Assembly: GCF_014873875.1 (NCBI RefSeq)
Contig: NZ_JADBEM010000001.1
Coordinates: forward strand, 4,774,001 to 4,838,000
From: Actinopolymorpha pittospori
GTDB taxonomy: Bacteria > Actinomycetota > Actinomycetes > Propionibacteriales > Actinopolymorphaceae
DNA: 64,000 nt
Direction of reading: 5' to 3'
Under the pieces are notes generated by a model. It saw only the letters and a list, made by a program, of their open reading frames with translations, did no database searches and was not told the origin of the DNA. The position numbers and the translations under genes were made by a program. Shown one piece after another: positions 22,133-38,394 of this stretch; within the stretch, counting starts at the first letter, position 1; every line of letters starts with the position of its first letter.

Positions 22133-22167
22133 GATGAGGACTCTGAGCCAATGGTGAGGAGGACGCC

Positions 22168-23202: not shown

Positions 23203-23252
23203 GTTCTGATCAGACAGGACCCGACAGCCGCTCATGCGACGAAGGGCACGGA

Positions 23253-23744
23253 ATGCGGGTATATCTCGGGATCACACTGACCGAGTTGGCGAGTGCGGTC
23301 GCACAGGGCGGCTTCGGTCCGCCGCCGCTCCTCGCGTACGCGGTCACGCCGTCGTTGCGTGAGTGGTACGCCGAGGGCGACCAGGAGGAGCTCGAGTACG
23401 CCGCCACCTCCGATGCGTCCCGGGAGTCCCTGCGGCACCTGTCCTTCGACACCAACGCTCCGCGCCGCCGGGTCGTGGTGGCCGCCGACGCACCCGATGG
23501 TCTGGTCCTCCCCGACGCGTCCGTCGGCCGCTCCGTCGTCGTGGTCCAGGCCGCGCTGCCGATGGACAAGGTGGCCGCCGTGCACGTCGACGAACCCGAG
23601 GCCGCGCAGGTCGTGGCCGCCGCCGCCGACGTCGTCGGCAAGGCCGACGCGGGCGAGGACGACGCGGAGTTCACCGTCGACGAGGCATTGGGACACGAAC
23701 TGCTGTGGTACGCCCGGCAGGAGATTCCCGACCTGTTCGCCTAG
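23253..23744 (+). CDS. Conserved actinobacterial hypothetical protein (DUF6912-like)
   Basis: 163 residues, ATG 23253 with AAGGG upstream. The opening MRVYLGITLTELASAVAQGG and the central RRVVVAADAP and VQAALPMDKVAAVHVDEPEA segments match a small actinobacterial family annotated DUF6912. The C-terminus ends GHELLWYARQEIPDLF. No signal, membrane segment or catalytic motif can be seen. It is 50 bases downstream of the patatin gene on the same strand. Confidence 0.75.
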   Translation: MRVYLGITLTELASAVAQGGFGPPPLLAYAVTPSLREWYAEGDQEELEYAATSDASRESLRHLSFDTNAPRRRVVVAADAPDGLVLPDASVGRSVVVVQAALPMDKVAAVHVDEPEAAQVVAAAADVVGKADAGEDDAEFTVDEALGHELLWYARQEIPDLFA

Positions 23745-23806
23745 GCCGCCTCGCGCGGGAGAGCTCGGCTGGCGTGGGGGAGTGGTGCCAGAGCGGTGCG
23801 CGAACC

Positions 23807-24508
23807 TCAGTCCTCGGTCGGAGGGCTGGTGTCGCTGGAGTCGGTGTCGGCGGCCGCCGCGGCCTTGACCACGGCCTCCAGCTTCGACCGGGCGCCGAGC
23901 TTTTCCAGGACCTTCCGGACATGGCTGCGGACAGTCGGATAAGCGATGTTCAACCGGGAGGAGATCTCCCGGTTGTCCAGCCCCTTCGACATCATGTCGA
24001 GGATCTCGCGTTCGCGCGTGGTCAGACTCTCCAGCGCCTGTGCGCGGTCGGAGCGTTGGCGGGTGACCTCCCGGCTCCTGGACAGCAGCTCGTGCAGCCT
24101 CGACGCCGGGATGAGCATCTCGCCGGCCGCCGCCCGGACGACGGCCTCGACGATCTCCTGGCCGGTGGCCGTCTTGATGAGGTAGCCGGAGGCACCGGCC
24201 TCGATGGCCGCGATCATCGCCTGGTCACTGTCGTCGGCACTGACGAACACCACGGCGACCTCTGGTTGGATCTCGCGGATTCCGGCGGCCACGTCGACGC
24301 CGTTGCCGTCGGGCAGCCAGAAGTCGAGCACCGCGACGTCGATCTGCTGCTCGCCCGCGGCGCGGACCGCGTCCGCGACCGTGGCCGCCCAGCCCTGTAC
24401 CTCGAGGTCTGGATGTTCGTTGAGGAGTGCGCTCAGCCCTTCCGCCACCACCGCGTGGTCCTCGACGACGAGAACCCGGATCGTGCCGGAGCCCGGCTCT
24501 GTGCTCAC
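23807..24508 (-). CDS. NarL/FixJ-family response regulator
   Basis: 233 residues from GTG 24508, overlapping the kinase stop (GTGA). The receiver domain has the acidic pair E16-D17, phospho-acceptor Asp62 (VAVLDFWLPDGNG), a Ser at the switch position (VFVSADDSD) and Lys in YLIKTA. The LuxR-type helix-turn-helix (residues about 165-225) begins LTTREREILDMMSKGLDNREISSRL. Direct overlap with the REC-PAS-PAS kinase gene marks the pair as cognate. It is the last gene of the long minus-strand run that starts with gtrA, so it may control that run or another surface function. Confidence 0.93.
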   Translation of the reverse strand: MSTEPGSGTIRVLVVEDHAVVAEGLSALLNEHPDLEVQGWAATVADAVRAAGEQQIDVAVLDFWLPDGNGVDVAAGIREIQPEVAVVFVSADDSDQAMIAAIEAGASGYLIKTATGQEIVEAVVRAAAGEMLIPASRLHELLSRSREVTRQRSDRAQALESLTTREREILDMMSKGLDNREISSRLNIAYPTVRSHVRKVLEKLGARSKLEAVVKAAAAADTDSSDTSPPTED

Positions 24509-26415
24509 TGATTCCCTCCGGTCAGGCCCGCCTCGCGCGGGACCCAGAACTCCACGGTAGTCCCGGCTCCGGGGGCACTTTCCACTCGGCACCACCCGCC
24601 GGCGATCTCCGCCCGGTCGCGCATGAGGGTTAGTCCGAGATGCCCCGCTCTGGCCTCGGCCTCGAGCGGGTTGTAGCCCACACCGTTGTCGTTGATCTCC
24701 ACCAGCACCCCGTCGTCGACCCCGCTGAACCGCACCCGCAGATCCGTCGCCTGCGCGTGTTTGCGTACGTTCATCAACGCCTCCTGGGTGATCCGGTAGA
24801 TGAGTACGCGCGCCTCCGGCGGGGGCTCCTCCTCCAGCTGGTTGTCCAGGTACGACACGAGGCGTGTGTCCGCCCGCAACTGTTCGATGTAGACGTTCAC
24901 GGCCGCGACCAGGCCCTCGTTCTCCAACGCCGGTGGGCGGAAGTCGAAGATCATCCGGCGGAGCCGATCCGCGGCGAGCCGGACGGTTTCCTCCAGCTTG
25001 TCCAGGACCCGCAGGTCGTCGGGGTCTCGTAGCCTGCGTCGCAGTTGTTGCAGTCGCAGGGCCGCCGCGGTGATGACCTGCAGGCTGTCGTCGTGGATGC
25101 CGGCGGCGATCCGGAGCCGTTCCCGCTCCTGGGCGCCCACCAGGTCGACCAGAACGTGCCGACGCTCCTGGCCGGCGGCCCGGAGCGCCTCGACGCTGCG
25201 TTCGAGGACCGCGCGTGAACCGACGGACTCGGTCATGTCGCGGATCGAGAGGATGACCCGCGGTCCCTCCTCGGTCCGGATCCAGCCGATGCTCACGTCC
25301 ACCGGGAAGTCGGTGCCGTCGCGTCTCCGGCCGGTGAGTTCCATGCCCTCAGGGGTGGGAGCACCGGGAGCCTCCGGAACCTCGTCGCTCTCGCGTCGGT
25401 AGATCGTGACCGGATGGTCGGGCAGCAGCGTGTCGACCGACTGGTCGAGCAGATCCTCGCGCGGGAACCCGAAGATCTGCTCCGCCGCCCCGTTGACCAG
25501 CCGGATCACGCCGCTGCTGTCGACGATGACCGTGGCGTCCGGCGACGACTCGAACAGCTGCTGGAAGCGGGCCTCGGCGAGGCTGAGGTCGCTGATGTCC
25601 CGTAGGAAGACCGCGACTCCCCGTTGCCCGTGCGACATCGGGCTGGCGGACACCTCGACGGGGAAGGTGCTTCCGTCCTTCCGCCGTCCGGACGCCGTGA
25701 AGTGCGCCTCGGGCTGGTCCTCGTCGGCCTCCCGGCTGAGCAGCCGATGGATCAGCTCGTCCGCGGGTTCGCCGTAGCGAGACGCCGGGACGAGCCGCGT
25801 GATCGGCTCGCCGACGAGCTCCATCCGGCGGTAGCCGAACAGCTGTTGCACGCGGGCGTTGACGGTCTCGATCGTCCCGTCCGGGCCCACGAGGACCGCG
25901 GCCGCGCCCACCCGGTCCAACAACTGGCGGAGCGTGTTGGCGTTCTGCAGGGTTGTCGCGCCGGTCCGCCGCTCGTTCTCCAGGTTGCGGCGCAGCACCT
26001 GGATGCAGTCCCGCGCCAGCGCGACCGAGATGCTGAGCTGCCCCCGCGCGGCCCGGACGATGGCGTCCAGGATCTCCCCGTCCGGAATGCCCTTGACGAG
26101 GTAGCCGGTGGCGCCGGCGGCCAGGACGTCGACCGCGCTGCCCGGATCCTCGTAGGCGGACAGGACGAGGACGGCGGTGTTGGGGCTGCCGTCCTGGATC
26201 GCCCGGATGGTGGCCGGCGCGGTGCCGCCGGGCATCCGCACGTCGAGCACCACGACGTGCGGATGGTCACGCAGAGCGAGGCGTACCGCGTCCGGGTGGC
26301 TGACCGCCTGGCCGGCCAGCTCCAGGTGTGGCTGGCTCGCGATGAGGTCGGCCAGGGCGTCACGGAGCGCGCGGTCGTCGTCGGCGATCACGACACGGAT
26401 CGTCGCGTCAGTCAT
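24505..26415 (-). CDS. Hybrid sensor kinase: receiver-PAS-PAS-HisKA_3-HATPase
   Basis: 636 residues, ATG 26415. Order: a complete receiver at 5-125 (Asp12-14, phospho-acceptor Asp58, Lys108), PAS at about 165-280, PAS at about 282-400, HisKA_3 with His441 (RIAAGIHDDSLQV), and a HATPase with NDNGVGYNP and GHLGLTLMRDRAE. There is no membrane segment, so it senses a cytoplasmic signal. The receiver sits at the N-terminus of a NarX-type kinase, so the protein can both be a phosphorylation target and drive its own NarL-type partner encoded next to it. The start overlaps the previous small gene by eight bases. Confidence 0.92.
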   Translation of the reverse strand: MTDATIRVVIADDDRALRDALADLIASQPHLELAGQAVSHPDAVRLALRDHPHVVVLDVRMPGGTAPATIRAIQDGSPNTAVLVLSAYEDPGSAVDVLAAGATGYLVKGIPDGEILDAIVRAARGQLSISVALARDCIQVLRRNLENERRTGATTLQNANTLRQLLDRVGAAAVLVGPDGTIETVNARVQQLFGYRRMELVGEPITRLVPASRYGEPADELIHRLLSREADEDQPEAHFTASGRRKDGSTFPVEVSASPMSHGQRGVAVFLRDISDLSLAEARFQQLFESSPDATVIVDSSGVIRLVNGAAEQIFGFPREDLLDQSVDTLLPDHPVTIYRRESDEVPEAPGAPTPEGMELTGRRRDGTDFPVDVSIGWIRTEEGPRVILSIRDMTESVGSRAVLERSVEALRAAGQERRHVLVDLVGAQERERLRIAAGIHDDSLQVITAAALRLQQLRRRLRDPDDLRVLDKLEETVRLAADRLRRMIFDFRPPALENEGLVAAVNVYIEQLRADTRLVSYLDNQLEEEPPPEARVLIYRITQEALMNVRKHAQATDLRVRFSGVDDGVLVEINDNGVGYNPLEAEARAGHLGLTLMRDRAEIAGGWCRVESAPGAGTTVEFWVPREAGLTGGNQ

Positions 26416-26851
26416 CGCGCCCTCCGTACTCTGCGATCGCGGCTTGCAGGCCCGAGCTGCCCACCTCCTCGGACAGCCGCCCGGTTACCCACGGTAGTGC
26501 GGCCGAGATCGGCTCGACGAGCAGCCGGTGGTGGCGCTCGTCGAGCCGGTCGCCGGCGGCGACCGCGGCGGCCGCGTCCCACGCGGCTGCCCAGAACGCC
26601 CAGTCGCTGCGGTCGTGGCGGCGGGCGACATCCATGGCGTCCCGGCGGGCCTGCACGGCGGCGTCGAGGACCGCGCGGCGCTCCGTGGATGTCGTCGCCG
26701 CTCCGATGGCGTTCCAGGCTCGCGCCCGGACCTGGCCCGACTGCTGCCTCCACCTCGCGACCACGGTGTCGATCTGCGCCCCGTCGAGGCGGTTGAGGTG
26801 GGAGATCAGGTGAAGAACACCGCGTGTGTTGGGTCCGAAGACGTCGGTCAT
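26408..26851 (-). CDS. Small hypothetical protein upstream of the hybrid kinase
   Basis: 147 residues, ATG 26851. It is mostly helical by composition (Ala 20 percent or more) with repeated Trp-Ala segments (WAFWAAAWDAAAAVAAGD); no signal or membrane segment. I do not recognise the family. It overlaps the kinase start by eight bases and is 26 bases downstream of the Ig-like repeat gene, so it is probably co-expressed with both and may be a kinase accessory protein, which is a guess from position. Confidence 0.7.
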   Translation of the reverse strand: MTDVFGPNTRGVLHLISHLNRLDGAQIDTVVARWRQQSGQVRARAWNAIGAATTSTERRAVLDAAVQARRDAMDVARRHDRSDWAFWAAAWDAAAAVAAGDRLDERHHRLLVEPISAALPWVTGRLSEEVGSSGLQAAIAEYGGRDD

Positions 26852-26877
26852 GCCGACGCACCCCCTCTGCGCACGGC

Positions 26878-28278
26878 TTAGTTCTTCAGATCCGGAGGAA
26901 GTTTGTACTTCTTCTGTGGTGGTAGATGCACCTTGCCTTCCGACTTGTCCACCGTGACGGTCGCCGTTCCGACGCCCTTGCTTTTCGCACCCCTGAGCTT
27001 GAACACCACCTTCCCGTAGGCGTCGGCGGGAATGGTGTAGGTGCCGGCCGCGAGCGCCGACCCGGCGGAGTTGACGCGGAACGCCGCCACCAGCTCATCC
27101 TGGACGTAGACGTGCACGGCCTCGTTGGGGGCGAAGCCCTTCGCGTAGAAGTTGAGCATCGTCCCGGGCAGGCCGCCCCAGGTGCTGGTCCGCACGGTCG
27201 GGTTGAAGGGCATCGCCGCGAAGCCCGCCTTGGTCGAGGCCCGGCTCTGCTCGCCGACGAAGATCAGCGAGTAGCGGCCGAAGAGACCGTAGGGCACCTT
27301 GAACGCCACGCCGCCGATGGTCCCCTGTTCGCTCGCGCGCATCGTCATCACCGGTGTGCCGGTGGCCTTGCCGAAGTACCCGAGCACCCGCTCGTTCGGG
27401 GCGAAGCCACGGCCGACGATTTTGATCGTGCTGTTCCCCCGCGCGGCGAACGGCTTCGTCAGCACCATGGGGTACTGCCGGAGCAGCTGGAACGGTGCCA
27501 TCGCGGTCGTCTTGCTCTTCGTGCCGATCAGGATGATCGTGTTGTCCCCGATCGCACCGACACCGACCCGCAGCGAGGCGTGCTGGATCTTGCCTGCCGA
27601 GTCGGCGCGCAGCGTCGTCGTCGGCGTGCCGGTGATCCGGCCCCAGTAGACCTTGATCGCCTCGTTGGGCGAGAACCCCTCGGCGTCGATCGTCAGCGGC
27701 GTACCGGGCTGCCCGACCTCATCGCTCAACGTCACCAGACCGACACCGGACTGGGCGCTGAGGTCGGCCTTGGCGACCTTGGACGTGCTGCCGTCCTGGA
27801 CCACCGTGACCGTCTGCCGCCCCGCGGAGTTGGCCACGCCGACCGGGTAGGTGAAGTTGGCGTTGATCACTCCGTCGCGGTTTACCTTGGCCGTCGCCAC
27901 GACCCTCGCCGTCTTCTTCTTCCCGGTCGAGAGCAGGACCCGGACCCGGGCGCCCTTGTCGAAGCCGGACGCGTTGACACCGACCTGTCCGCCCGGCTTC
28001 GCGAGCGCCGGGTTGAGGATGGCTACCGGTCCGGCGCCGACGGGCACCTTTCGCCCGTTGAACTGGACGATCTTCGTCGGTTTCTTGACCTCGGGTACCT
28101 CGACCTGCGCTCCCTTCTCCGAAGAGGAGGAGTTCGAGCCCGGGCCCCCACGGCCTGTGAGGTCGACACTGCCCTTGCCTCCACCGCCTGGGAGCACGGA
28201 CCGCCCCACCGAGATCAGAGCCAACGCGACGACCGTCACGATCAGGACCTGTTTCCAGCTCCACTTCGACATGTTCAT
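26878..28278 (-). CDS. Exported protein with four Ig-like repeats
   Basis: 466 residues, ATG 28278 after AGGGAG. One N-terminal hydrophobic helix (residues 10-30) acts as signal or anchor, then a Gly/Ser-rich linker. Four repeats of about 90 residues follow from about residue 75. Their shared core is PG-x-x-L-x-I-x-A-x-GF-x-PNE-x-V-x-VY-x-G-x-x-xGTP, clearest as GFSPNEAIKVYWGRITGTP, GFAPNERVLGYFGKATGTP and GFAPNEAVHVYV. They resemble IPT/Ig-like beta-sandwiches used for adhesion or polysaccharide binding. The tail is Lys-rich. Position just after the GT-C gene suggests a surface partner in polymer export or attachment. Confidence 0.8.
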   Translation of the reverse strand: MNMSKWSWKQVLIVTVVALALISVGRSVLPGGGGKGSVDLTGRGGPGSNSSSSEKGAQVEVPEVKKPTKIVQFNGRKVPVGAGPVAILNPALAKPGGQVGVNASGFDKGARVRVLLSTGKKKTARVVATAKVNRDGVINANFTYPVGVANSAGRQTVTVVQDGSTSKVAKADLSAQSGVGLVTLSDEVGQPGTPLTIDAEGFSPNEAIKVYWGRITGTPTTTLRADSAGKIQHASLRVGVGAIGDNTIILIGTKSKTTAMAPFQLLRQYPMVLTKPFAARGNSTIKIVGRGFAPNERVLGYFGKATGTPVMTMRASEQGTIGGVAFKVPYGLFGRYSLIFVGEQSRASTKAGFAAMPFNPTVRTSTWGGLPGTMLNFYAKGFAPNEAVHVYVQDELVAAFRVNSAGSALAAGTYTIPADAYGKVVFKLRGAKSKGVGTATVTVDKSEGKVHLPPQKKYKLPPDLKN

Positions 28279-28322
28279 CGTTCACTCCCTGCCAACCTCA
28301 GCGCCCGCGCGGGGCGGCGTGG

Positions 28323-29906
28323 CTAGTTCACGATCCGGTAAACCGAGAGATGGATGTTTCCTCTGTTCAGGTCCCATACACGCTCGCTGTGCTGATCGAT
28401 TGCCTGGAGCATCCATTCCTCCGCTCCGGCGGTGTTGTTGCGCTCCATCGCCTGGCGCATCTTGTTGGACATCACGACGTAGTCGATGTTCTGCCAGTTC
28501 TTCCGGAACAGTTTGTCGCGGACGGCAGGGTCAGATGCCGCCTTGAAGTGTGAGTGGGCGCGTGGGAAATACGGCTTCTGGTCGTGCAGCGACGTCCAGA
28601 TGTCGTCGTCGATGATGATTCTGGAGTTCGCTGGAATGTTCTCCCGCACCCAATCGATCTGTTGCACCTGCAGCGGCGTCACCTGCAGGTGGTAGAGGTC
28701 ATGAACCTGAACCTCGTTCTGGGTGTTGTAGGCGAGGAAGTACGCGCCGGGAACCACCAGGGCCGCACCGACGATCGCGGTGGTCACCGCGACCTGCAGG
28801 GTCCGCGGAACCAGCTTCGCCATGGTGCCGTAGACCAGGCCGACGTTCATCGCGAGCACCGGCAACAGCGGCACGATGTAGAAGTCGAGCAGCACGCTCC
28901 CGCGGGCCATGTAGATGCCGTAGCCGAGCGCCATCAGCGCGGCGATCAGGTAGCCGGTTCGCGACCGGTCGTTCCACCACAACATCAAGACGATGCCGAC
29001 CGCGATCACTCCGCCGATGAGGATCAGGGGGTCGCGTGACATCCAGGAGTTCTCCAGCAGCCGGATGAACAACTCCCGTCCGGACACGCCGGTTCGGTTG
29101 GACTGCCACCAGATCGTGTAGAGCAGCGACACGTGGTTCCGCTGCGGAGCGTTGAGGTCGAAGTTCAGACCGCTCGGCAACAGCTCGTTGCGTAGCTGTG
29201 CGAAGAGCACGTAGAAGGCCACCGGGATGGTGAGCCCGAACCACCAGAAGCTGGTCTGGAACCTCCGGCTCGGGCCCGTCGAGTACCGGTGCGCCATGTA
29301 GGCGACGGCCGGCACGAAGAACACCGCGTTCTCCTTGGTGACCAGCGCCAGGCCGAACGCGAGTCCCGACCCGATCGCCGTGACCACCCGGTCGCTGTTA
29401 CGGGCGACGAGATACACCGCCAGCAGCAGCCACACGACCATCAGGTTGTCCAGCAGGACCTGGCGCTGGTAGTAGACCGCCAGCGGGGAGAAGTTGAAGA
29501 TGAAGCAGGCGAGGAACGCGCCGGCCGAACTGCCGCAGAACCGCCGGACGATCGCGAACAGCAGGCCCGTACTGATCACGTGTGCCACGACCATCAGCGC
29601 GCGCACCGTGTTGATGGGGTTGCCGAACGCCTCGAACTGCCCAGGCAGGATGTTCGCCCAGGCCGCCATCACCAGCCAGCCGAACGGGGCGTGGTCGTAG
29701 AAGTAGGTGTATGGCGAGAGCGAGCCCTCCCGGAGCACCGCCCAGGCCTGCTGGACGTAGATGCCCTCGTCGGTGATGTACAGCGGATACTTGAACACGT
29801 GGTATCCGTGGGTCGCCGCACCGCTGATCAGCGACACGATCAGCAGAATGTTCGATCGTGTGCGCAGCCGCTCCGACAGCGGTGCCTTCGTCGTCACCTC
29901 AGCCAC
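28323..29906 (-). CDS. GT-C family (GT39/ArnT-like) integral membrane glycosyltransferase
   Basis: 527 residues from GTG 29906, overlapping the GT2 gene by eight bases. About ten to eleven membrane helices; the first outer loop carries ITDEGIYVQQAW, where the Asp-Glu pair is the conserved acidic site of PMT/ArnT-type enzymes that use polyprenyl-phosphate sugars. A C-terminal outer domain of about 110 residues follows (NIPANSRIIIDDDIW). It should transfer a lipid-linked sugar on the outer face of the membrane. The acceptor is not known. Overlap with the processive GT2 indicates a shared pathway. Confidence 0.87.
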   Translation of the reverse strand: MAEVTTKAPLSERLRTRSNILLIVSLISGAATHGYHVFKYPLYITDEGIYVQQAWAVLREGSLSPYTYFYDHAPFGWLVMAAWANILPGQFEAFGNPINTVRALMVVAHVISTGLLFAIVRRFCGSSAGAFLACFIFNFSPLAVYYQRQVLLDNLMVVWLLLAVYLVARNSDRVVTAIGSGLAFGLALVTKENAVFFVPAVAYMAHRYSTGPSRRFQTSFWWFGLTIPVAFYVLFAQLRNELLPSGLNFDLNAPQRNHVSLLYTIWWQSNRTGVSGRELFIRLLENSWMSRDPLILIGGVIAVGIVLMLWWNDRSRTGYLIAALMALGYGIYMARGSVLLDFYIVPLLPVLAMNVGLVYGTMAKLVPRTLQVAVTTAIVGAALVVPGAYFLAYNTQNEVQVHDLYHLQVTPLQVQQIDWVRENIPANSRIIIDDDIWTSLHDQKPYFPRAHSHFKAASDPAVRDKLFRKNWQNIDYVVMSNKMRQAMERNNTAGAEEWMLQAIDQHSERVWDLNRGNIHLSVYRIVN

Positions 29907-31215
29907 TTCGCATCGCCTTCTCTGCGGTCACGGCGGACTTCGGGGCCGACACGGTCGGGCGGTGCGCACCGACGTGCTCGGTCTTCTCCCAGTTCCGTTG
30001 TCCGGCCATCTGCCGGCGCAGGGCCCGGATGGCCGCGTACGCCATCACGAGCTGGTACGGAACCCAGGTGAAGGCCATCTTCACGGCGATGCCCGGGCTG
30101 GGCTTCATCCCGTGCGCCTCGGTGAACTCGTGCAGTCCGACGACGGCGGTCAGGAAGTGGGCGATCAGCAACAGCACCGGCAGGAACGACACCAGCGCGA
30201 CCGTGACCGGTGCGTGCAGCACGACCATCATCAGCAGGGCCATCGGCGTGTAGATACCGAAGACCGCCTGCGCGTACGGGAAGGCGAGGGTGTAGCAGGC
30301 CAGCCAACGCTGCCGCCGCGTCGGCATCTGTTTCCAGCTGCCCTTCCCGAGCGTCTGCATGAACCCCTGGTTCCAGCGGGTGCGCTGCTTGATGAAGCTC
30401 GTGAGCGTCGGCGGCGTCTCCTCCTTGGTGACGTACCGGTCGTCGTAGATCACCCGGATCCGCTCACCCATCGCACACATGCGCAGCCCAATCTCGGCGT
30501 CCTCGGTGAGGTTCGTCTCGTCCCAGCCGTCAAGATGCAGGAGCAGCTTGCGGTTGAAGAAGCAGGTGTTGCCCCCGAGCGGGATCGATCCGTGCTTGGC
30601 GTGGTGGTGCAGCCGGCTCTTGAACCAGAAGAAGTACTCGAGGACGTTGAAGGTGGAGTACCAGTTCGTGGTGTAGTTCATCAGCTGGACGCCGGCCTGG
30701 ACGATGTTGACCCGCTCGCCCACCATCACGGTGTTGACCACCCGCAGGATGTCCGGGTGCATCTCGTCCTCGGCGTCGAAGATCGTCACCACGTCGCCCT
30801 GGGCACGTCGCAGTCCGCAGTTCAGCCCGTGTGGCTTGTTGACAGGCTGGTCGTCGAAGACCACGAGGTCGGCGTTGTTGATGCCCTCGTAGCGCAGGTC
30901 CTCGAGCTTGTCCCGTACGCGGGCGATGGTCCCCGTGTCGTCCGCGGAGCAGATGACCAGCACCTGCAGAAGATGTGGGGGGTAGTTACTGTGCACGATC
31001 CGGTCGATCGTCCTCGCGATGACCTCCTGCTCGTGGCGAGCCGGCAGGAGGGCGGTGAACGAAAGGGCCGGAGCCGCGAAGTGGTCCGGAGCCTTCGTCC
31101 GTCCGTCGACGTCCGGCTGGTCCCAGGTGTAGATCATCAGGTACAAGGTGTGCGCCGCCTGGATGGTCAACAGCAGCGAGATCACCACCAGACCCCCGAA
31201 GATGAACGACTCCAT
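29899..31215 (-). CDS. Processive family 2 glycosyltransferase (cellulose-synthase-like)
   Basis: 438 residues if started at ATG 31215; an in-frame ATG at 31245 adds ten residues. An N-terminal helix precedes the GT2 domain, followed by three or four helices from about residue 330. The processive-enzyme motifs are present: an early Asp (FDDQPVN), FDAEDE as the metal-binding DxD, TEDAEIG, and QRTRWNQG as Q-x-x-RW. These define enzymes of the cellulose/hyaluronan/chitin type that extrude polymer. It lacks the PilZ tail and gating loop of BcsA, so the product cannot be named. It overlaps GT-C downstream and GtrA upstream. Confidence 0.9.
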   Translation of the reverse strand: MESFIFGGLVVISLLLTIQAAHTLYLMIYTWDQPDVDGRTKAPDHFAAPALSFTALLPARHEQEVIARTIDRIVHSNYPPHLLQVLVICSADDTGTIARVRDKLEDLRYEGINNADLVVFDDQPVNKPHGLNCGLRRAQGDVVTIFDAEDEMHPDILRVVNTVMVGERVNIVQAGVQLMNYTTNWYSTFNVLEYFFWFKSRLHHHAKHGSIPLGGNTCFFNRKLLLHLDGWDETNLTEDAEIGLRMCAMGERIRVIYDDRYVTKEETPPTLTSFIKQRTRWNQGFMQTLGKGSWKQMPTRRQRWLACYTLAFPYAQAVFGIYTPMALLMMVVLHAPVTVALVSFLPVLLLIAHFLTAVVGLHEFTEAHGMKPSPGIAVKMAFTWVPYQLVMAYAAIRALRRQMAGQRNWEKTEHVGAHRPTVSAPKSAVTAEKAMRSG

Positions 31216-31657
31216 CCTTCTTGCCACCCCATATCCATGTCGCACTGACGGCGAGATTGATGCTCATCGCGGCGGCGATGCCGAACAGGTTCCCCACCAG
31301 ATAGAAAACCCCGGAACTCGCCAGAGCCCAGACGACCGCGACATTCACGGCCAGGGCGACCAGCGCGGTGCCGTTGAACTTGGCGAATCGGAGGAAGGAC
31401 ACCCGGCGGGAGCCGAAGGTCCAGATCTCGTTGAGCACGTAGTTGTTGGCGATGGCGATCTCGGCCGCCGTGGCCGAGGCGAACACCAGCGGAACCCGCG
31501 CCATCCCGTGCAGCAGATGGAGCGCCAACGTGTTGAGAGCCACCCCGATCAGGCCCACCAATGAAAACCGCCAAACCCGGCGGTCCAGCAGGAGCCTGAT
31601 CGAGCGTCGCCAACATCGTTGGTACGTACGCGATAGCTTTTGCGCGTAGGCGCACAT
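30986..31657 (-). CDS. GtrA-family membrane protein with overlapping C-terminal extension
   Basis: 223 residues from ATG 31657 (G-rich ribosome site nine bases upstream). Residues 25-145 form the four-helix GtrA domain: FSLVGLIGVALNTLALHLLH, FASATAAEIAIANNYVLNEIWTF with the family Asn/Trp pattern, and ending SATWIWGGKK. GtrA proteins are thought to move polyprenyl-linked sugars across the membrane, which fits a partner of the GT-C enzyme. After residue 148 the frame stays open for about 76 more codons inside the GT2 gene, in another frame and with Arg/Gly/Pro-rich composition. A lost stop codon or a base error near 31216 would explain this. Confidence 0.8.
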   Translation of the reverse strand: MCAYAQKLSRTYQRCWRRSIRLLLDRRVWRFSLVGLIGVALNTLALHLLHGMARVPLVFASATAAEIAIANNYVLNEIWTFGSRRVSFLRFAKFNGTALVALAVNVAVVWALASSGVFYLVGNLFGIAAAMSINLAVSATWIWGGKKDGVVHLRGSGGDLAAVDHPGGAHLVPDDLHLGPAGRRRTDEGSGPLRGSGPFVHRPPAGSPRAGGHREDDRPDRAQ

Positions 31658-32112
31658 GCGGCGCCGCCCCCCATAGACGGATCGCTTCGTTCGTCCACCG
31701 CAATCCTCCGTTGACGGGGTGCCGCCGCGCCTCCCCCTCGCATCCGTGATCGCTCCCCTCCTTCGGGGGAGTCCCCGCCCCCTACCTCGCGGGGGCTTCG
31801 CCGGCGGAGTCGGCACCAGTCGGGCAGGAACCACGTCAAAGAGGATCCGAGCGGGCATTCGGTGGTGGGGGCCAGCCGCACTTCTGCAAGCCGGCCCTGA
31901 CAGGGTGGGGACATGGTCGCGGTACGCAGCCGGCCGCTCGCCTGAGGTCGCGACTTCCTGGGCTGAACCCGCGAAACCCCCTCGGGCCTCGTCGTACGCT
32001 GTTGATCTAGAACGCGGGCGAGATGGGGGACTACCTGAGCGGGAAATTCGCCCCCGCGACCCGTACGGCGTGAAGTACGGCCGACCGGTCGGTACGGCGC
32101 GGGAGGGGGCCA
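31658..32112. other. Divergent control region between gtrA and the NarL regulator
   Basis: 455 bases without a gene. At 32061-32097 there are three GTACGG copies, the first two forming the inverted repeat CCGTAC-N8-GTACGG (32062-32081) in the likely leader of the plus-strand regulator gene. No confident -35/-10 pair is visible in either direction. Confidence 0.5.
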
Positions 32113-32760
32113 ATGACTGTCCGCCTGTTGATTGCCGAGGACCATGCCGTGGTCCGGCAGGGGCTCATGATGTTCCTCAAGCTGGACGACGGTGTCGAAG
32201 TGGTCGGCGAGGCGCGAAACGGACGTGAGGCGGTGGAACTCGCCCACCAGCTCACACCCGACGTCGTGCTGATGGACCTGCTGATGCCCGTCATGGACGG
32301 CATCAGCGCCATCGCGGCCATCCGGCGTGAGCTTCCGGACGTGGAGGTCGTTGCGCTCACCAGCTTCCTCGAGGACCACCTCGTGGTCGACGCGCTGCGG
32401 GCCGGCGCGATCGGCTACCTCCTGAAGGACACCGACGCCGACGGCCTGCGCAAGGCGGTCCGGGCGGCGGCGTCCGGCCAGGTGCACCTGTCGCCCGCGG
32501 CGGCCGCCAGGCTGGTCCGGGACATGCGAGTGACCAACAGCCCGGGCCCACTGACCCGGCGCGAGGTCGAGGTGTTGATCCTGCTGGCTCGCGGGCGGTC
32601 GAACAAGGAGGTCGCCCGGGAACTGTCGATCGGTCAGCAGACCGTGAAGACCTACGTCAGCAGCATCCTGCGCAAGCTCGACGTGCAGAGCCGGACGCAG
32701 GCGGCGCTGTACGCCGTGCAGACCGGACTGGTCTCCACCCACGAGTTGGCGCAGGCGTGA
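32113..32760 (+). CDS. NarL/LiaR-family response regulator
   Basis: 215 residues, ATG 32113 with GGGAGGGGG upstream. The receiver has E9-D10, phospho-acceptor Asp55 (VVLMDLLMPVMDG), Thr in VALTSF and Lys in YLLKDT. The LuxR-type helix-turn-helix starts LTRREVEVLILLARGRSNKEVA. The next gene, a GAF kinase, starts inside its stop (GTGA), so the two are translationally coupled as a cognate pair. It is divergent from the exopolysaccharide-type genes, so they are candidate targets. Confidence 0.94.
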   Translation: MTVRLLIAEDHAVVRQGLMMFLKLDDGVEVVGEARNGREAVELAHQLTPDVVLMDLLMPVMDGISAIAAIRRELPDVEVVALTSFLEDHLVVDALRAGAIGYLLKDTDADGLRKAVRAAASGQVHLSPAAAARLVRDMRVTNSPGPLTRREVEVLILLARGRSNKEVARELSIGQQTVKTYVSSILRKLDVQSRTQAALYAVQTGLVSTHELAQA

Positions 32761-34421
32761 CCAGCCGCGGCACGTTCCACGACACCGCCGACGCGCCGGG
32801 AGCTCGTCAGGCGGCCCAGTCGCGGGCCGTGGCCGATGTCAACGCGGCCTTGCACGACGGCGTGGACCGCGACGGCGTCCTCGGTCTCGTCGCGCGGGGG
32901 GTGCGACAGGTGCTCGGCGCCTCGGCGTGCACGGTGATGACCCTGGAGCCGAACGAGACCCTGCTGGTCCGCGCGGCCGACGGCCGGGTCAGGCCGGACC
33001 TGCCCGGCAGTCACGTCCCCGTGGACGACACGCCGGAGGGCGAGGTCGTCCGTAGCCAGGCCCCGGTGATGAGCGCTGACGGGCAGGATCCGCGCTGGCG
33101 TGAGACGTCCCTCTCGGGGCCCGGGCTCGGGTCGGTCCTGCTGGTCCCCGTGCCCGGATACGACCGTCCCGGCGGTGTCATCGAGGTCGCCGACGCCGAA
33201 GGCCGTCACTTCGGTACCGACGACGCGCGCACGGTCGGCCTGTTCGCGGCCCAGGTGGGCATGGCGGTGGAGCACGACCGCGCGGGCGCCGACCTGGAGT
33301 TGCTCGCGGCAGTCCTCGGTCAGCCGGACACCGAGCCACTGCCGCGGACGCTGGAGGCGTTGACCACCGGTGTCCTCTCCGGCACCGAGGCGCTCGCCTG
33401 CGCGATCTACCTGCTCGACGACAACCTGTCCTTGCGGAGGGTCGCCGGTGACGGTCCGCGCGAGCTGATCGAGGCCGGAATGACCGGATCGGGTCCGAAC
33501 GTCGCCCATGCGGCGATCGCGTCGAGAGCTCCGATCGTTCACCAGCACGTCCTTCCCGGTGACCTGCCGGGCTCGGGCCGCCGTTCGCCGCGCTGGTCCG
33601 AGGGGTCCGAGACGTCCGGGCTTGCGGCGTCCTTGGTGTGCGTTCCGCTGATGTCGCGAAGCGTCGTGCTGGGCGTGCTGTGCTGCCACTGCCCACCCGG
33701 TCGATACCCCAGCAAGCTCGAGCTCGCCTACCTGTCCGTGGTGGCCGGCAAGGCGGCGATGGCCGTGGACAGCTCCCATCTCGTCGCCTCGGCGCAGGAG
33801 AAGGCGGCCCAGGAGGAACGGCAGCGGCTCGCGCGTGAGCTGCACGACTCGGTCTCCCAGGCCCTGTACGGCATCGCCCTGGGCGCGCGGACGGCCAGAG
33901 AGTCCCTCGGCGAGGAGCCGGAGGAGCAGGTCGACCAGCCGCTTGGCTACGTCCTGGCGCTGGCCGAGGCCGGCCTGGCCGACATGCGCGCGCTGATCTT
34001 CGAGCTGCGACCGCAGGCGCTCGCCGAGGAAGGGCTGGTCGCCGCGCTCCACAAGCAGCTGGCGGCGTTCCGCGCCCGGCACGGCGTGGACACCCATGCC
34101 GAGCTCGGACCCGAACCCGCGGGGGCGTTCAAGGTGAAGCAGGCGTTGTACCGGACCGCGCAGGAAGCGTTGCAGAACACCGCGAAGCACGCCCAGGCTC
34201 GCCGGATCGTCGTGCGCCTCGAGACCAGTCCTACCGCACTCGCCCTGGAGATCGCCGACGACGGGGACGGCTTCGACCCGAGCGCGTCCTTCCCGGGACA
34301 CCTCGGACTCCGGTCGATGCGGGAGCGGATCACCGAGGTCGGCGGCGTGCTCGATCTCGCCAGCGCTCCCGGTGAGGGCACCCAGATCCGGGCCAGGGTG
34401 CCGACCGGGCTGTGGCCGTGA
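32757..34421 (+). CDS. GAF-domain sensor histidine kinase (NarX/LiaS type)
   Basis: 554 residues from GTG 32757. Two GAF domains occupy about residues 25-175 and 185-340; no membrane helix, so the signal is intracellular (a small ligand, redox or gas is possible for GAF domains). HisKA_3 follows with His363 in RLARELHDSVSQAL, and the HATPase has the N-box RTAQEALQNTAKHAQ, then ADDGDGFDP and GHLGLRSMRERI. It pairs with the regulator overlapped at its 5' end. A strong hairpin follows the stop. Confidence 0.93.
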   Translation: MTSRGTFHDTADAPGARQAAQSRAVADVNAALHDGVDRDGVLGLVARGVRQVLGASACTVMTLEPNETLLVRAADGRVRPDLPGSHVPVDDTPEGEVVRSQAPVMSADGQDPRWRETSLSGPGLGSVLLVPVPGYDRPGGVIEVADAEGRHFGTDDARTVGLFAAQVGMAVEHDRAGADLELLAAVLGQPDTEPLPRTLEALTTGVLSGTEALACAIYLLDDNLSLRRVAGDGPRELIEAGMTGSGPNVAHAAIASRAPIVHQHVLPGDLPGSGRRSPRWSEGSETSGLAASLVCVPLMSRSVVLGVLCCHCPPGRYPSKLELAYLSVVAGKAAMAVDSSHLVASAQEKAAQEERQRLARELHDSVSQALYGIALGARTARESLGEEPEEQVDQPLGYVLALAEAGLADMRALIFELRPQALAEEGLVAALHKQLAAFRARHGVDTHAELGPEPAGAFKVKQALYRTAQEALQNTAKHAQARRIVVRLETSPTALALEIADDGDGFDPSASFPGHLGLRSMRERITEVGGVLDLASAPGEGTQIRARVPTGLWP

Positions 34422-34450
34422 GGTCGTCCGCGACCGCGCCGCGCCGCGGA

Positions 34451-34493
34451 CAGCAACAAGCCCCGGACCTGTGGAATCCGGGGCTCGTTGCTG
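34451..34493. terminator. Bidirectional terminator between the GAF kinase and GH5 genes
   Basis: 17-position stem CAGCAACAAGCCCCGGA (34451-34467) against 34477-34493 with a single A-C mismatch and a 9-base loop. It sits between two converging genes. Confidence 0.8.
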
Positions 34494-34526
34494 TGCGGTT
34501 GGGTGGTGGTCTGGTCGACCTCCAGG

Positions 34527-35828
34527 CTAGCTCTTGTCGGCCTTGCTCTCGTCGCTGGCGCCGCTCTTCTTGGTCGGCTCGGCGAACGGGGCCTGGTACT
34601 GCTTGAGCATGGCGACCTTCGCCTTGTTGACCGTCTTCCAGTCGTTGTTCAGAACGCCGCCGGTGTCACCGGAGTTGGCGTTCCACGACCAGTAGGTGTA
34701 GTTCAGGCTGTTCTTCTTCGCGAAGGCCACCGTGGCGTGCTGCCACTTACCCTCGACGGTCGAAGGACTCACGGACTTCCCGCCGAACTCACCCAGCAGC
34801 AACGGTGCGGTGTTGTCGTGCTTGAGGTAGGCCCAGTGCTTGTTCCACACGGACTCGAGGTTGTTCGGGTAGTTCGGAGCCTGGAACCAGGACTGCTGGT
34901 AGACGCCCGGACCGTAGTCGTGCGGGGAGTAGACGAGCTTGTCGCTCACCGACAGACGCACGGGGTTGTCGTGCGCACCCATCAGGTTCCCGCCCCACCA
35001 GTAGTAGTCGTTCTTGTAGGACTCGATGCCCTCGACGACCACCAGCCAGTTGGGGTTCTCCTTCAGGATGGCGTCGCCGGCACGCTCGGCGGCGAGACGC
35101 CAGTCGGTGCTCTTGTCGCCGCTGCCCCAGGTGGCCTTGCCGCGAGGCTCGTTGTGCAGGTCGCCGCCGATCACCAGCGGGTCATCCTTGAAGTGCTTGG
35201 CGAGCATCGTCCAGTCGTCGATCCAACGCTGCTCACTGACCGTACTGGTGTACCAGAGCTCACTTTGGGCCTGGGAGTCCGGACGGTGCCGGTCGAGCAG
35301 GACCATGATGCCGCGGTCGGTCGCGCCACGGACGATCTTGTCCATCAGCTGCATGCTGGTGAGGCCCTTGAGGTCCGGGTTCAGGTGGTAGTTGATCCCG
35401 TTGGGCTTGCTGGCCTGATCGAAGAGCTGGTTCGAGTACGGGAGCCGGATCGTGTTGAACCCGGTGGACTTGATCTGGTCAAGCATGCTCTTCCAGTTAC
35501 GTGCCCACAGGCCGTGCGGCGCGTACGTGTTGGTCTCGAAACCGAACCAGTTGACACCAGTGAGGTTCACCTTCTTGCCGGCCGAGTCGATCAGGTCGGA
35601 GCCGGAGGTGTGCAGGGGTGGCTGGATGAGCTTGTCGTTCGTCTTGACAGCGTCGCCGGCGGCACTACCCACGTCGGCGGAGATCCCCTTACCAGCGGGG
35701 TTTCCGCCGCCCGGCAGGAATGCCGCGACCAGACCAATCGCCAGGCATGCGATCACAGGAACCAACAGGATTGCGATCCGGCCACCCTTGGTGGCCTCTC
35801 GGTAACGAGAACTAACCCAGGTTAGCAT
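34527..35828 (-). CDS. Membrane-anchored GH5 cellulase (endoglucanase-like)
   Basis: 433 residues, ATG 35828. A short cytoplasmic N-terminus and a membrane helix (about residues 18-40) are followed by a linker and a GH5 barrel from about residue 75 (VNLTGVNWFGFET). The acid/base Glu lies in GGDLHNEPRG (about residue 226) and the nucleophile Glu in LLLGEFGG (about residue 346). His residues in LLDRHRP and YSPHDYGP match the GH5 pattern. It should hydrolyse a beta-1,4-glucan outside the cell while tethered to it. The gene start overlaps the end of an orphan receiver gene by 17 bases, and a cellulose-synthase-like GT2 lies nearby. Confidence 0.9.
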   Translation of the reverse strand: MLTWVSSRYREATKGGRIAILLVPVIACLAIGLVAAFLPGGGNPAGKGISADVGSAAGDAVKTNDKLIQPPLHTSGSDLIDSAGKKVNLTGVNWFGFETNTYAPHGLWARNWKSMLDQIKSTGFNTIRLPYSNQLFDQASKPNGINYHLNPDLKGLTSMQLMDKIVRGATDRGIMVLLDRHRPDSQAQSELWYTSTVSEQRWIDDWTMLAKHFKDDPLVIGGDLHNEPRGKATWGSGDKSTDWRLAAERAGDAILKENPNWLVVVEGIESYKNDYYWWGGNLMGAHDNPVRLSVSDKLVYSPHDYGPGVYQQSWFQAPNYPNNLESVWNKHWAYLKHDNTAPLLLGEFGGKSVSPSTVEGKWQHATVAFAKKNSLNYTYWSWNANSGDTGGVLNNDWKTVNKAKVAMLKQYQAPFAEPTKKSGASDESKADKS

Positions 35829-36189
35829 GCTCCTCCAATAGGATCTTCACCAGATCCGCCCCGCCAAGAATCTTGCTGACGTGACGGTGATATCCGGCGT
35901 CGAAACTTCGTCGTACAGCAGCGATGTCGTCGTAACTCGACAGCGCAACTAATCGGGCATTCGGTAGTTGGTGACTAACTTCGTAGGTGCGGTGCGCGTC
36001 GTCATCGCCAACCGCTTCCAGGTCGAAAAGAAGTACGTCCGGCTCACTGGTGCGAGCGACCGAAATTACTTCCTCCACGTTCTGGGCGACCCCGAGTAGT
36101 TCGAGGTCTGGCTCATCGGCAACCAAATCGGTTAGCGCCTCGACCAGTTGCGGATGGTCACCGACGACGACGACACGTGTTTTCCGAAT
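35812..36189 (-). CDS. Orphan receiver-domain protein with non-standard start
   Basis: About 125 residues: a full receiver with VVVVGDHP (one of the two acidic residues is Gly), phospho-acceptor in PDVLLFDLEAVG, Ser at VALSSYDD and Lys in VSKILGG. There is no output domain. In-frame ATG, GTG or TTG is absent upstream of the first strand; the only candidate near the Shine-Dalgarno sequence GGGGAGGAG is ATT at 36189, two bases beyond it. The first TTG (36126) would delete the first strand and helix. The 3' end overlaps the cellulase start by 17 bases. It could be a real protein with a rare start or a remnant. Confidence 0.6.
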   Translation of the reverse strand: MRKTRVVVVGDHPQLVEALTDLVADEPDLELLGVAQNVEEVISVARTSEPDVLLFDLEAVGDDDAHRTYEVSHQLPNARLVALSSYDDIAAVRRSFDAGYHRHVSKILGGADLVKILLEEHANLG

Positions 36190-36540
36190 TTCTCCTCCCC
36201 GGCAATCGCGATCGCAACTCGGTCAACTTAGGCAGCCAAAGTCGACTGGGTCGCCGTACGAGGGATCGAACTTTCGCTCGGTCAATTGCGCGCACGACAT
36301 AGTTCAGTTGGATGTCATCCAATTGGATGAGCGGGCGAAACCGTGGCGGAGAAGTGTCCCGGTCGGCGACATCTCGTCCCGCGTACCCGGCTTGGACATT
36401 TGCCCCTCGGGGGAACGTTGCGGACAGGATGCGGACGCGGGTCCGGGAGGCCGATCCGGTGCCGCGAGCACCGTTGACCCGGGCAGGGTGCGTAGGTAGG
36501 TTCCAGTGACGGGGGTAGGTGACGTAGGAAGTTTTCACTG
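36190..36540. other. Divergent control region between the orphan receiver and nagZ
   Basis: 351 bases with no gene. It holds the overlapping palindromes at 36308-36330. GGTCAA occurs at 36221-36226 and again at 36280-36285 (TTGACC on the minus strand), possible -35 parts for the receiver/cellulase side. Confidence 0.55.
36308..36330. promoter_or_regulatory. Overlapping palindromic operator (TTGGATG/CATCCAA)
   Basis: Three alternating copies of one heptamer: TTGGATG (36308-36314), CATCCAA (36316-36322), TTGGATG (36323-36329). They form a 7-1-7 inverted repeat and a 16-base perfect palindrome TCATCCAATTGGATGA (36315-36330). The layout suggests a dimeric regulator with two overlapping sites. 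It lies about 119 bases from the receiver start and 211 from the nagZ start. Confidence 0.55.
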
Positions 36541-38394
36541 ATGCATCGGGGAGGATCCGTGCAAATCGTCCCGTCAGGTCCCCGTCGGCGTTCCGTCGTT
36601 TTGGGCGCCGCGGGTGCCGTCGCGGCCTTCGGCGCGTCGAGCACGGCCCCGGCCTGGGCCGACGAACGCCGGCCGCCCCGGCCCACCGCCACCCACGGCC
36701 CCCGTGCCGAGGCCTGGATCAGGCGCGTCCTGCGACAGATGTCGGTCGAGGAGAAGGTCGGCCAACTCCTCGTCACCCACGTCTACGGCGCCCGCGCCGA
36801 CAGTGTCGACGCCAGAAACACCTCGGAGTACGGCGTGGCCACCCCGGCGGAGGTCGTCACGAAGTACCACCTCGGCGGAGTCTGCTACTTCACCTGGTCG
36901 GGCAACGTCGTCTCGCCCCGACAGGTCGCCGCGCTCTCCAACGGGCTCCAGGGCGCCGCGACGGGAGCCGACCCCGGACTGCCGCTGCTGATCTCCACCG
37001 ACCAGGAGCAGGGGACGATCGTGCGGGTCGGACCGCCCGCGACGCAGTTTCCCGGCAACATGGCGCTCGGCGCCGGCCGGGACGCGCGGGCGGCACGTGA
37101 CTCGGCCGCCATCACCGGCCGGGAACTCGCCGCACTCGGGATCAACCAGGACTACGCACCCGACGCCGACGTCAACGTCGATCCGGGCAACCCGGTCATC
37201 GGCGTCCGTTCCTTCGGCTCCGATCCCGCACTGGTCGCCGAACTCGCCGTCGCCCAGGTCGAGGGCTACCAGGACGAGGGCCGGATCGCCGCAACCGCCA
37301 AGCACTTCCCCGGGCACGGCGACACCTCGGTGGACAGCCACACCGGCATCCCGGAGATCACCCACACCCGGGAGGAGTGGGAGCGCATCGACGCGCCGCC
37401 GTTCCGGGCGGTCATCGAGGCCGGTGTCGACTCGATCATGACCGGGCACCTGGTCTTTCCCGAGCTGGATCCCTCCGGTGATCCCGCGACGCTGTCCCAC
37501 CCGATCGTGACCGGCCTGTTACGCGAGGCGCTGGGCTTCCAGGGTGTGGTCGTGACGGACGCACTCGACATGCAGGGCGTACGGGACAAGTACGGCGACG
37601 ACCGCGTGATCGTCCTCGCCGTCAACGCCGGTGTCGACATGTTGCTGCGCCCGCCCCGCTTCGATCTCGCCCACCAGGCGCTGCTCGCCGCGGTCCGCTC
37701 GGGTGAGATCAGCGCCGAGCGACTCGACGAGGCGGTGAGCCGGATCCTGCGCCTGAAGCTGGGCAACCACGTCGTCCACCAGCCCCTCGTGGACGAGGCC
37801 GCGGTCGACGCCACGGTCGGTACGCCCGCGCACCTGTCCCGCGCCGACCGGATCACCGAGGCGACCACCACCGTGGTGAAGAACGACGCCGGCCTCCTTC
37901 CGCTCCCACCGGGGGAGCGGCGCGTCCTCGTCGCCGGTGCTGGTGGCGCCGCGGTCACGACTCTCGCGCAGGCCGTCGGCGAACGCGGGGCGAGCACCCA
38001 GGCCCTCGCGACGGGCACCCGGCCAAGCGACGCGTCCATCGCGAGCGCGGTGGCGGGCGCCCGCGAGAACGACCTGACCGTCGTGCTCACCCAGAAGGCG
38101 TGGGACACCAGGGTCACCGACCCGGAGGGACGCCAGCGACGGCTGGTGGCCGGCCTCCTGGCCACCGGGGCGCAGATGATCGTCGTCGCGGTCCAGGACC
38201 CCTACGACATCGCCTACTTCGCGGAAGCGCCGACCTACGCCGTCACCTACGCGCCGACCACGGTGGCGGTGCGCGCCCTCGCGCGGGTGCTGTTCGGCGA
38301 GGTCAGCCCCAGCGGCCGGCTCCCGGTCGAGATCCCGAGCGCGACCGACCCCGACCAACCGCTCTACTCCTACGGCCACGGCCTGTCCTGGTGA
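36541..38394 (+). CDS. nagZ: GH3 beta-N-acetylglucosaminidase (NagZ-type), Tat-exported
   Basis: 617 residues from ATG 36541; a GTG at 36559 with GGAGGATCC upstream is an equally good start. A Tat signal RRRSVVLGAAGAVAAFG is followed by a GH3 barrel with KHFPGHGDTSVDSH (about 253-267), which holds the His-Asp acid/base dyad specific to NagZ-type enzymes, and nucleophile Asp340 in VVTDALDM. A C-terminal alpha/beta-sandwich domain is present, as in Bacillus NagZ (YbbD). It removes GlcNAc from muropeptides outside the membrane. It opens a muropeptide-recycling operon. Confidence 0.9.
   Translation: MHRGGSVQIVPSGPRRRSVVLGAAGAVAAFGASSTAPAWADERRPPRPTATHGPRAEAWIRRVLRQMSVEEKVGQLLVTHVYGARADSVDARNTSEYGVATPAEVVTKYHLGGVCYFTWSGNVVSPRQVAALSNGLQGAATGADPGLPLLISTDQEQGTIVRVGPPATQFPGNMALGAGRDARAARDSAAITGRELAALGINQDYAPDADVNVDPGNPVIGVRSFGSDPALVAELAVAQVEGYQDEGRIAATAKHFPGHGDTSVDSHTGIPEITHTREEWERIDAPPFRAVIEAGVDSIMTGHLVFPELDPSGDPATLSHPIVTGLLREALGFQGVVVTDALDMQGVRDKYGDDRVIVLAVNAGVDMLLRPPRFDLAHQALLAAVRSGEISAERLDEAVSRILRLKLGNHVVHQPLVDEAAVDATVGTPAHLSRADRITEATTTVVKNDAGLLPLPPGERRVLVAGAGGAAVTTLAQAVGERGASTQALATGTRPSDASIASAVAGARENDLTVVLTQKAWDTRVTDPEGRQRRLVAGLLATGAQMIVVAVQDPYDIAYFAEAPTYAVTYAPTTVAVRALARVLFGEVSPSGRLPVEIPSATDPDQPLYSYGHGLSW

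Follow-up and report, generated by a model that had tools for sequence, protein, structure and literature searches.

In this report we focus on a stretch of 64,000 nucleotides (nt) from Actinopolymorpha pittospori (contig NZ_JADBEM010000001.1, positions 4,774,001 to 4,838,000), termed here the window, and particularly on one of its loci, which joins a membrane glycosyltransferase of family GT2 to a GT-C transferase, a protein with Ig-like domains (IgL) and a glucanase of family GH5. The genome measures 10.56 Mb, and among named relatives Actinopolymorpha rutila and A. alba stand closest to it. Seven genes run along the minus strand from 31657 to 23807, in the order GtrA, GT2, GT-C, IgL, ORF147, kinase and NarL-family regulator, and they form an apparent operon, with overlaps or gaps of at most 44 nt. 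A second NarL-family regulator and a GAF-GAF-HisKA_3 kinase lie in the direction opposite to GtrA, and beyond them, again on the minus strand, come the GH5 gene and a receiver domain (Table 1). Domains were assigned by a Pfam scan of ten window proteins, the plus-strand NarL regulator being scanned separately. All the parts named in a first-pass annotation, made from the sequence without database searches, are present where it placed them, though it had left off ORF147.

Table 1. Features of the locus, in window coordinates.
Feature	Position	Strand	Basis
GtrA-family small membrane protein	30986..31657	-	PF04138 66.8 bits; 3 hydrophobic segments (simple scan); ATG start chosen by us
GT2 membrane glycosyltransferase, synthase-like	29899..31245	-	PF13641 113.3 bits; FDAED, LTED, QRTRW
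GT-C (PMT_2) glycosyltransferase	28323..29906	-	PF13231 52 bits; DEG near N-terminus
IgL, presumed to be exported, with an N-terminal hydrophobic anchor and four Ig-like domains	26878..28278	-	AlphaFold2 model
ORF147, small conserved protein	26408..26851	-	homologues in related loci
REC-PAS-PAS-HisKA_3-HATPase kinase	24505..26415	-	Pfam domains
NarL-family response regulator	23807..24508	-	PF00072 and PF00196; start overlaps kinase stop by 4 nt
Conserved leader element upstream of GtrA, CTCCCCCGAAGGAGGGG	31755..31771	-	pattern search
NarL-family regulator, divergent	32113..32760	+	PF00072, PF00196 (94.2 and 70.4 bits)
GAF-GAF-HisKA_3 kinase	32757..34421	+	Pfam domains
GH5, Acidothermus endocellulase E1 type, putatively membrane-anchored	34527..35828	-	PF00150 192.2 bits; predicted anchor
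Orphan receiver domain	35812..36189	-	PF00072 37.8 bits; overlaps GH5 start by 17 nt

Related loci were found by their GT2, and those with a GT2 identity of at least 56%, once duplicates are removed, make up what we call the near clade. It holds 25 distinct loci: seven from Actinopolymorphaceae (with the window), seven from Dactylosporangium, three from Planosporangium, five from Chloroflexota (L103 among them), and one each from a truncated Micromonosporaceae metagenome-assembled genome (MAG; L043), a Streptosporangiaceae MAG (L046) and Streptomyces echinoruber (L050). GT2, GT-C and IgL stand together in all 25, and for this reason the locus cannot be put down to chance. We regard it as a genuine exopolysaccharide locus, conserved and apparently without a name so far. 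The expectation of the first-pass annotation that GT2 and GH5 would co-occur in relatives was likewise borne out, as GH5 is present in 23 of the 24 assessable loci, the contig of L043 being too short. The remaining one, L046, carries a GH8, and its genome gives no GH5 match at E <= 1e-40; S. echinoruber additionally carries a GH6. At E <= 1e-30, the GT2 was found in 12 of 57 genomes (own included), namely 6/6 of the genus, 1/2 of the others in the family and five more from the same order that show 30-47% identity. At E <= 1e-80, it was found in 24 of the 394 class genomes and in 2 of 197 from the class of a Chloroflexota MAG (query genomes counted), and one scan of a species-genome collection returned 41 loci. 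Wider surroundings were examined for 10 of the 24 matched class genomes (the window's own among the 24), and the AT-richer loci L048, L053, L054, L059, L061 and L072 were read by open reading frame list or tblastn. A plasmid search with the GT2 returned 146 records, all below 60% identity.

The GT2 itself carries the BcsA-type motifs TED and QxxRW, as LTED and QRTRW. Across an alignment of 23 rows, FDAED, the ED pair and QRTRW are invariant, the T of LTED being replaced by A in several. The motifs were compared with those of GtrB, ArnC and two PF00535 enzymes, none of which has QxxRW. In a tree with GtrB as the chosen outgroup, from which rows own_L004, own_L006 and own_L007 were left out, the window family (support 95/99) falls on the side of BcsA, CslA and XagB-like enzymes, and splits at 97/95 and 99/98 part it from GtrB, ArnC and the PF00535 enzymes. 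CslA joins BcsA at 100/97, apart from the window family, which is therefore not part of the CslA clade. The structural model agrees with BcsA and HAS in its fold, BcsA being the top Foldseek match (E 1.0e-15). Grouping with non-processive wall transferases, which the first-pass annotation had singled out as fatal to its reading, was thus looked for and not found. No PilZ domain was found in the GT2 by the Pfam scan, and it scores 39.7 bits against the NCBIfam CelA model, whose curated cut-off is 699.1 bits. Altogether, the protein groups with BcsA/CslA-type enzymes and not with GtrB/ArnC, its predicted fold is cellulose-synthase-like, and family and fold suggest that it is a processive polymerase and exporter.

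The GH5 is of the endocellulase E1 type: it matches the Acidothermus enzyme (1ece) at E 3.4e-123 (415 bits), with HNEP and GEFG aligned, and both catalytic Glu motifs (NEP and GEFG) are found in 19/19 of the locus copies looked at, of 23. Its sole hydrophobic segment, at residues 20-38 in the N-terminal part, points to an enzyme tethered to the membrane. The locus copy is the best GH5 of the genome in 9/9 of the other actinobacterial genomes searched that have a locus GH5, and ranks second or third among five or six copies in the three Chloroflexota genomes searched. Three extra copies lie in the window genome, at 1272863, 1625166 and 4996095. In a GH5 tree of 39 rows, which holds 19 of the 23 locus copies, these three are joined at 100/100 with three Actinopolymorpha locus copies, and four non-locus copies from Dactylosporangium and Planosporangium (Micromonosporaceae) sit on a separate 100/100 branch. 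A GH3 adjoining GH5 (L025/L035, L024) gives a two-piece match in A. rutila and only fragments in G002, and since these matches are broken up, the system may do without it.

Beyond the near clade, we gathered 28 gene-called GT2-GT-C loci at 40-47% GT2 identity, 16 from Frigoribacterium/Frondihabitans and the others being L033, L034, L070, L096-L102, L104 and L105. GH8 is found in 21 of these loci, another GH5 in one (L034, 24% identical to the window GH5 over 160 residues) and a GlxA-like oxidase in six (L070, L096-L099, L105), these counts being cluster assignments whose domains were confirmed in part, by Pfam or a PF01270 search. The Pfam-confirmed cases are L055, L056, L057, L033, L100, L104 and L046 for GH8, and L096, L098 and L070 for the oxidase. 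GH8 occurs in 8 of the 18 genomes searched (that of L046 included) and is in all eight a single copy located in the locus. The oxidase motifs FCxGH, WYP, RxYHS and TH, which we take to be the positions of the copper-radical residues, are kept in 10/10 aligned sequences, four of them being GlxA. A shorter, GlxA-sized homologue lies elsewhere in each of the five oxidase-locus genomes searched (L096, L097, L098, L099, L105). In L055, whose domains were scanned, the order is GT2-GTC-DUF4397-GH8-sortase, and 15 similar Frigoribacterium/Frondihabitans loci accompany it, which suggests that a wall-anchored partner replaces IgL in them.

Many of these loci also hold a separate PF00535 GT2 (23/28 by clustering), a type of enzyme that synthesizes polyprenyl-phosphate sugars. 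In L096 and, judging by length, in four similar loci its fusion partner is GtrA, and in the Patescibacteria loci L053 (9179-11347) and L059 (9089-11248) the synthase-like GT2, the domain scans covering Patescibacteria loci other than L054 and L072. The neighbour of the L053/L059 fusion is flavin amine-oxidase-like. The presence of this separate enzyme is our main reason for proposing that one protein supplies the donor and another makes the polymer. As none was found among the scanned proteins of the window locus, the rest of the genome not having been searched, the donor would there come from elsewhere in the genome.

The GtrA family comprises flippases of polyprenyl-phosphate sugars, and in an alignment of the GT-C with 25 rows, D46, E47 and G48 are kept in 95% of them or more. 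The last 260 nt of GtrA (30986-31245) overlap the GT2 gene, and its frame reaches about 250 nt or more into GT2 in 16/16 loci examined, the extension being alike inside a genus and not between genera (by eye). A selected overlapping gene was set aside, because synonymous change gives no consistent sign of selection. Over GT2 codons 13-86 it amounts to 0.129 in five Actinopolymorpha, at the low end (other parts 0.130-0.219), to 0.191 in Dactylosporangium (0.121-0.305) and to 0.196 in Planosporangium (0.153-0.339), and the low sub-stretches differ by genus (codons 13-50 in Actinopolymorpha, 0.057; codons 51-86 in Dactylosporangium, 0.106). We take the overlap to be a side effect of the loss of the GtrA stop, which leaves room for weak local constraint. 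Upstream of GtrA, a G-rich leader, CTCCCCCGAAGGNGGGG, is found with at most one mismatch in 6/7 Actinopolymorphaceae, and a related one, GGGGGAGNCCGAAGG, once per locus in 9/9 Dactylosporangium and Planosporangium loci scanned, both patterns having been derived from the very regions in which they were counted. A riboswitch was considered for this leader and dropped, as window positions 22000-37500 matched nothing in Rfam with an E of 1 or less.

In the AlphaFold2 model of IgL (mean predicted local distance difference test score 82.9, predicted template modelling score 0.56), we read an N-terminal helix and four Ig-like beta domains. The protein has no Pfam match, reaches 38.9 bits against NF058592 (cut-off 45), and a sequence search of the PDB gave nothing credible (best E 0.4). 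Among the 394 class genomes it is full-length in the window genome only, with partial domains in ten others. ORF147 has homologues in 9 of the 24 near-clade loci searched (seven Actinopolymorphaceae, window included, L046 and L050). A kinase and NarL regulator lie downstream of IgL in 20/20 actinobacterial loci (seen only in part in L043), and no kinase or NarL match was found in 5/5 Chloroflexota loci; we therefore regard these pairs as lineage wiring and not as core. Within Actinopolymorphaceae, the divergent NarL regulators are 88-96% identical. Since the REC-PAS-PAS kinase has no hydrophobic segment and the GAF kinase a single weak peak (1.93, between the first GAF and HisKA_3), regulation by intracellular signals is plausible. 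The orphan receiver probably starts at an ATT (36187-36189) behind a GGAGGAG-like site, as seen by eye in 7/7 Actinopolymorphaceae; an in-frame GTG follows five codons after in four of the seven, not in the window, and the S. echinoruber homologue starts with ATG.

Gene content, linkage, motifs and fold similarity, as laid out above, are the observations from which a function may be proposed. The reading that we favour, with a confidence only somewhat above even, is that of a synthase-dependent exopolysaccharide locus, whose product would most likely be a cellulose-like glucan with a decoration step. Using a cytosolic sugar nucleotide, the GT2 would lengthen and export a chain that is beta-linked and most likely resembles a beta-1,4-glucan. 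At the outer face, GtrA would offer a sugar carried by polyprenyl phosphate, for GT-C to move onto the emerging chain, roles that we propose because of their families and because related loci have a separate PF00535 GT2. As an anchored and exported protein, IgL may fill the outer-face role of BcsB, CcsB or GlxA, and the anchored GH5, by analogy with CslZ, CcsZ and BcsZ, may trim or release the chain or open its path through the wall. The kinase/NarL pairs and the receiver would tune expression, in Actinobacteria only. The first-pass interpretation is supported in part: its GT2/GH5 co-occurrence, its GT2 placement and its non-standard cluster stand, and the signalling pairs lie outside the core. 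More tentatively, and with odds that we place clearly short of even, the loci may form a distinct class of decorated beta-glucan synthases in Actinomycetota, Chloroflexota and Patescibacteria, in which the GT2 and GT-C core is constant, lineages swap both their outer-face partners (IgL, DUF4397/sortase, GlxA-like oxidase) and their glucanases (GH5, GH8, GH6), and a polyprenyl-phosphate side sugar is added during extrusion.

Several observations weigh against the synthase reading: one aligner puts the mannosyltransferase PcManGT as the closest fold by Z, the GT2 model has about four transmembrane helices, the Chloroflexota locus GH5s do not form one clade and fall in three places of the GH5 tree, and the GH5 of L047 bears a cellulose-binding module (CBM_3), a feature equally compatible with degrading cellulose and with trimming. 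The two structural points would suit a three-component glycosylation cassette, in which GT2 loads a single sugar onto polyprenyl phosphate, GtrA flips the product and GT-C glycosylates a wall polymer or IgL, no new polymer being made, and so would the position of GtrA and GT-C beside GT2, a trio also found in the available text of PMC13390465. We nevertheless consider such a cassette unlikely, as the tree keeps the GT2 apart from GtrB, ArnC and the PF00535 enzymes, the invariant QRTRW has no counterpart in them, the separate PF00535 GT2 of related loci (fused in L096, L053 and L059) could do the loading, and the glucanases would be left unexplained. That the GH5 is an ordinary plant-cellulose degrader, lying by chance beside a glycosylation operon, would account for the CBM_3 and for the further copies in the window genome and in the three Chloroflexota genomes, and yet we find it very improbable in view of the linkage in 23 loci of two phyla, of the GH8 present instead in L046, which lacks GH5, and of the separate branch of the four non-locus Dactylosporangium and Planosporangium copies.

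The nature of the polymer calls for a similar weighing. GH8, GH5 and GH6 include enzymes acting on chitosan-like, mannan, xylan or mixed-linkage substrates, and a synthase for such a beta-linked polymer, instead of a beta-1,4-glucan, would agree with the GT2 scoring higher against PgaC_IcaA (61.9 bits) than against CelA. The substrate range of GH6, as given in the portion of PMC9040799 consulted, points the same way. The closeness of the GH5 to endocellulase E1, the recurrence of GlxA-like partners and the lack of a deacetylase domain among the Pfam matches of the ten scanned proteins speak against it, and make it a distinctly poor candidate in our eyes.

If the synthase reading is true, the window family adds a recurring system, with cultured hosts in Actinopolymorpha, Dactylosporangium, Planosporangium and Frigoribacterium, to the few cellulose-like systems worked out in Gram-positive bacteria, of which the papers considered, each in part, offer CslA-GlxA and Ccs. 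With a GT-C beside a synthase-like GT2, a single machine would then combine two routes, synthase-dependent extrusion and decoration from a lipid-linked donor. Because glucanase families replace one another repeatedly at one place, what the hydrolase does in synthase-dependent export can be tested directly, and a core common to Actinomycetota and another phylum may represent a new type of bacterial polysaccharide machine. No description of this gene set was found among the entries listed, judged mostly by titles and the opening lines of abstracts, in a literature that leaves out most subscription papers; within it, nothing was found on a Dactylosporangium cellulose synthase, Actinopolymorpha exopolysaccharide appears only via marine isolates, and the words GtrA and Chloroflexi are absent from the main text of an exopolysaccharide operon survey (PMC7112194).

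As models of mechanism we took CslA/GlxA/CslZ, CcsA/CcsB/CcsZ and BcsA/B/Z, in each of which a synthase works jointly with a glucanase and a non-homologous partner, and the Pfam and NCBIfam scans together with a PF09118 search uphold the earlier view that the locus is not a standard Bcs, CslA/GlxA or Ccs cluster. With BcsABCZ, whose BcsZ is a GH8, it shares the GT2 fold, TED and QxxRW, and GH8 occurs in many relatives of the window GT2 family; unlike BcsABCZ, the ten scanned proteins give no match to PilZ, BcsB or BcsC. GtrA-GtrB-GT-C cassettes share with the window GtrA and GT-C, and differ by their GtrB/DPMS-type GT2, which the window GT2 is not, by tree and motifs. The gsf cluster of Actinoplanes missouriensis likewise has GtrA, a GT2 and a membrane glycosyltransferase (PMC13390465, available text), and it was set aside as the same system because its remaining genes differ and its transferase is stated not to be a GT-C; the terms GH5, GH8 and cellulase are absent from the main text of that paper. 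Actinoplanes also pairs GH5 enzymes, GimA/GimB, with polysaccharide genes in the imp cluster, which was set aside too, these enzymes being near beta-mannosidases and the cluster Wzx/Wzy-like in the sections of PMC12691653 seen, as was the GtrA/GtrB glucan of L. johnsonii, built by a GtrB-type enzyme according to the part of PMC7117936 used. Clostridial CcsZABHI comes nearer in its parts, with a Gram-positive GT2 synthase, a GH5 hydrolase beside it, as in the window, and an anchored beta-rich partner, CcsB; CcsB has two transmembrane helices and a CBM11-like domain, whereas IgL has one anchor and four Ig-like domains (PMC7710045, in part), and no MBOAT or DHHW O-acetyltransferase match was obtained among the ten scanned proteins. 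In Streptomyces, the system to compare is CslA-GlxA-CslZ (PMC11022532, PMC9040799). Its CslA lies on another GT2 branch, its CslZ is a GH6 and not a GH5, no GT-C or GtrA is named for it in the available text of these two papers, and the window genome gives no PF09118 (GO-like E-set) match to a GlxA-type oxidase. The window locus nevertheless resembles it in that a membrane GT2 is clustered with a membrane-associated glucanase and a non-homologous partner, and relatives of the window GT2 adjoin a GlxA-like oxidase.

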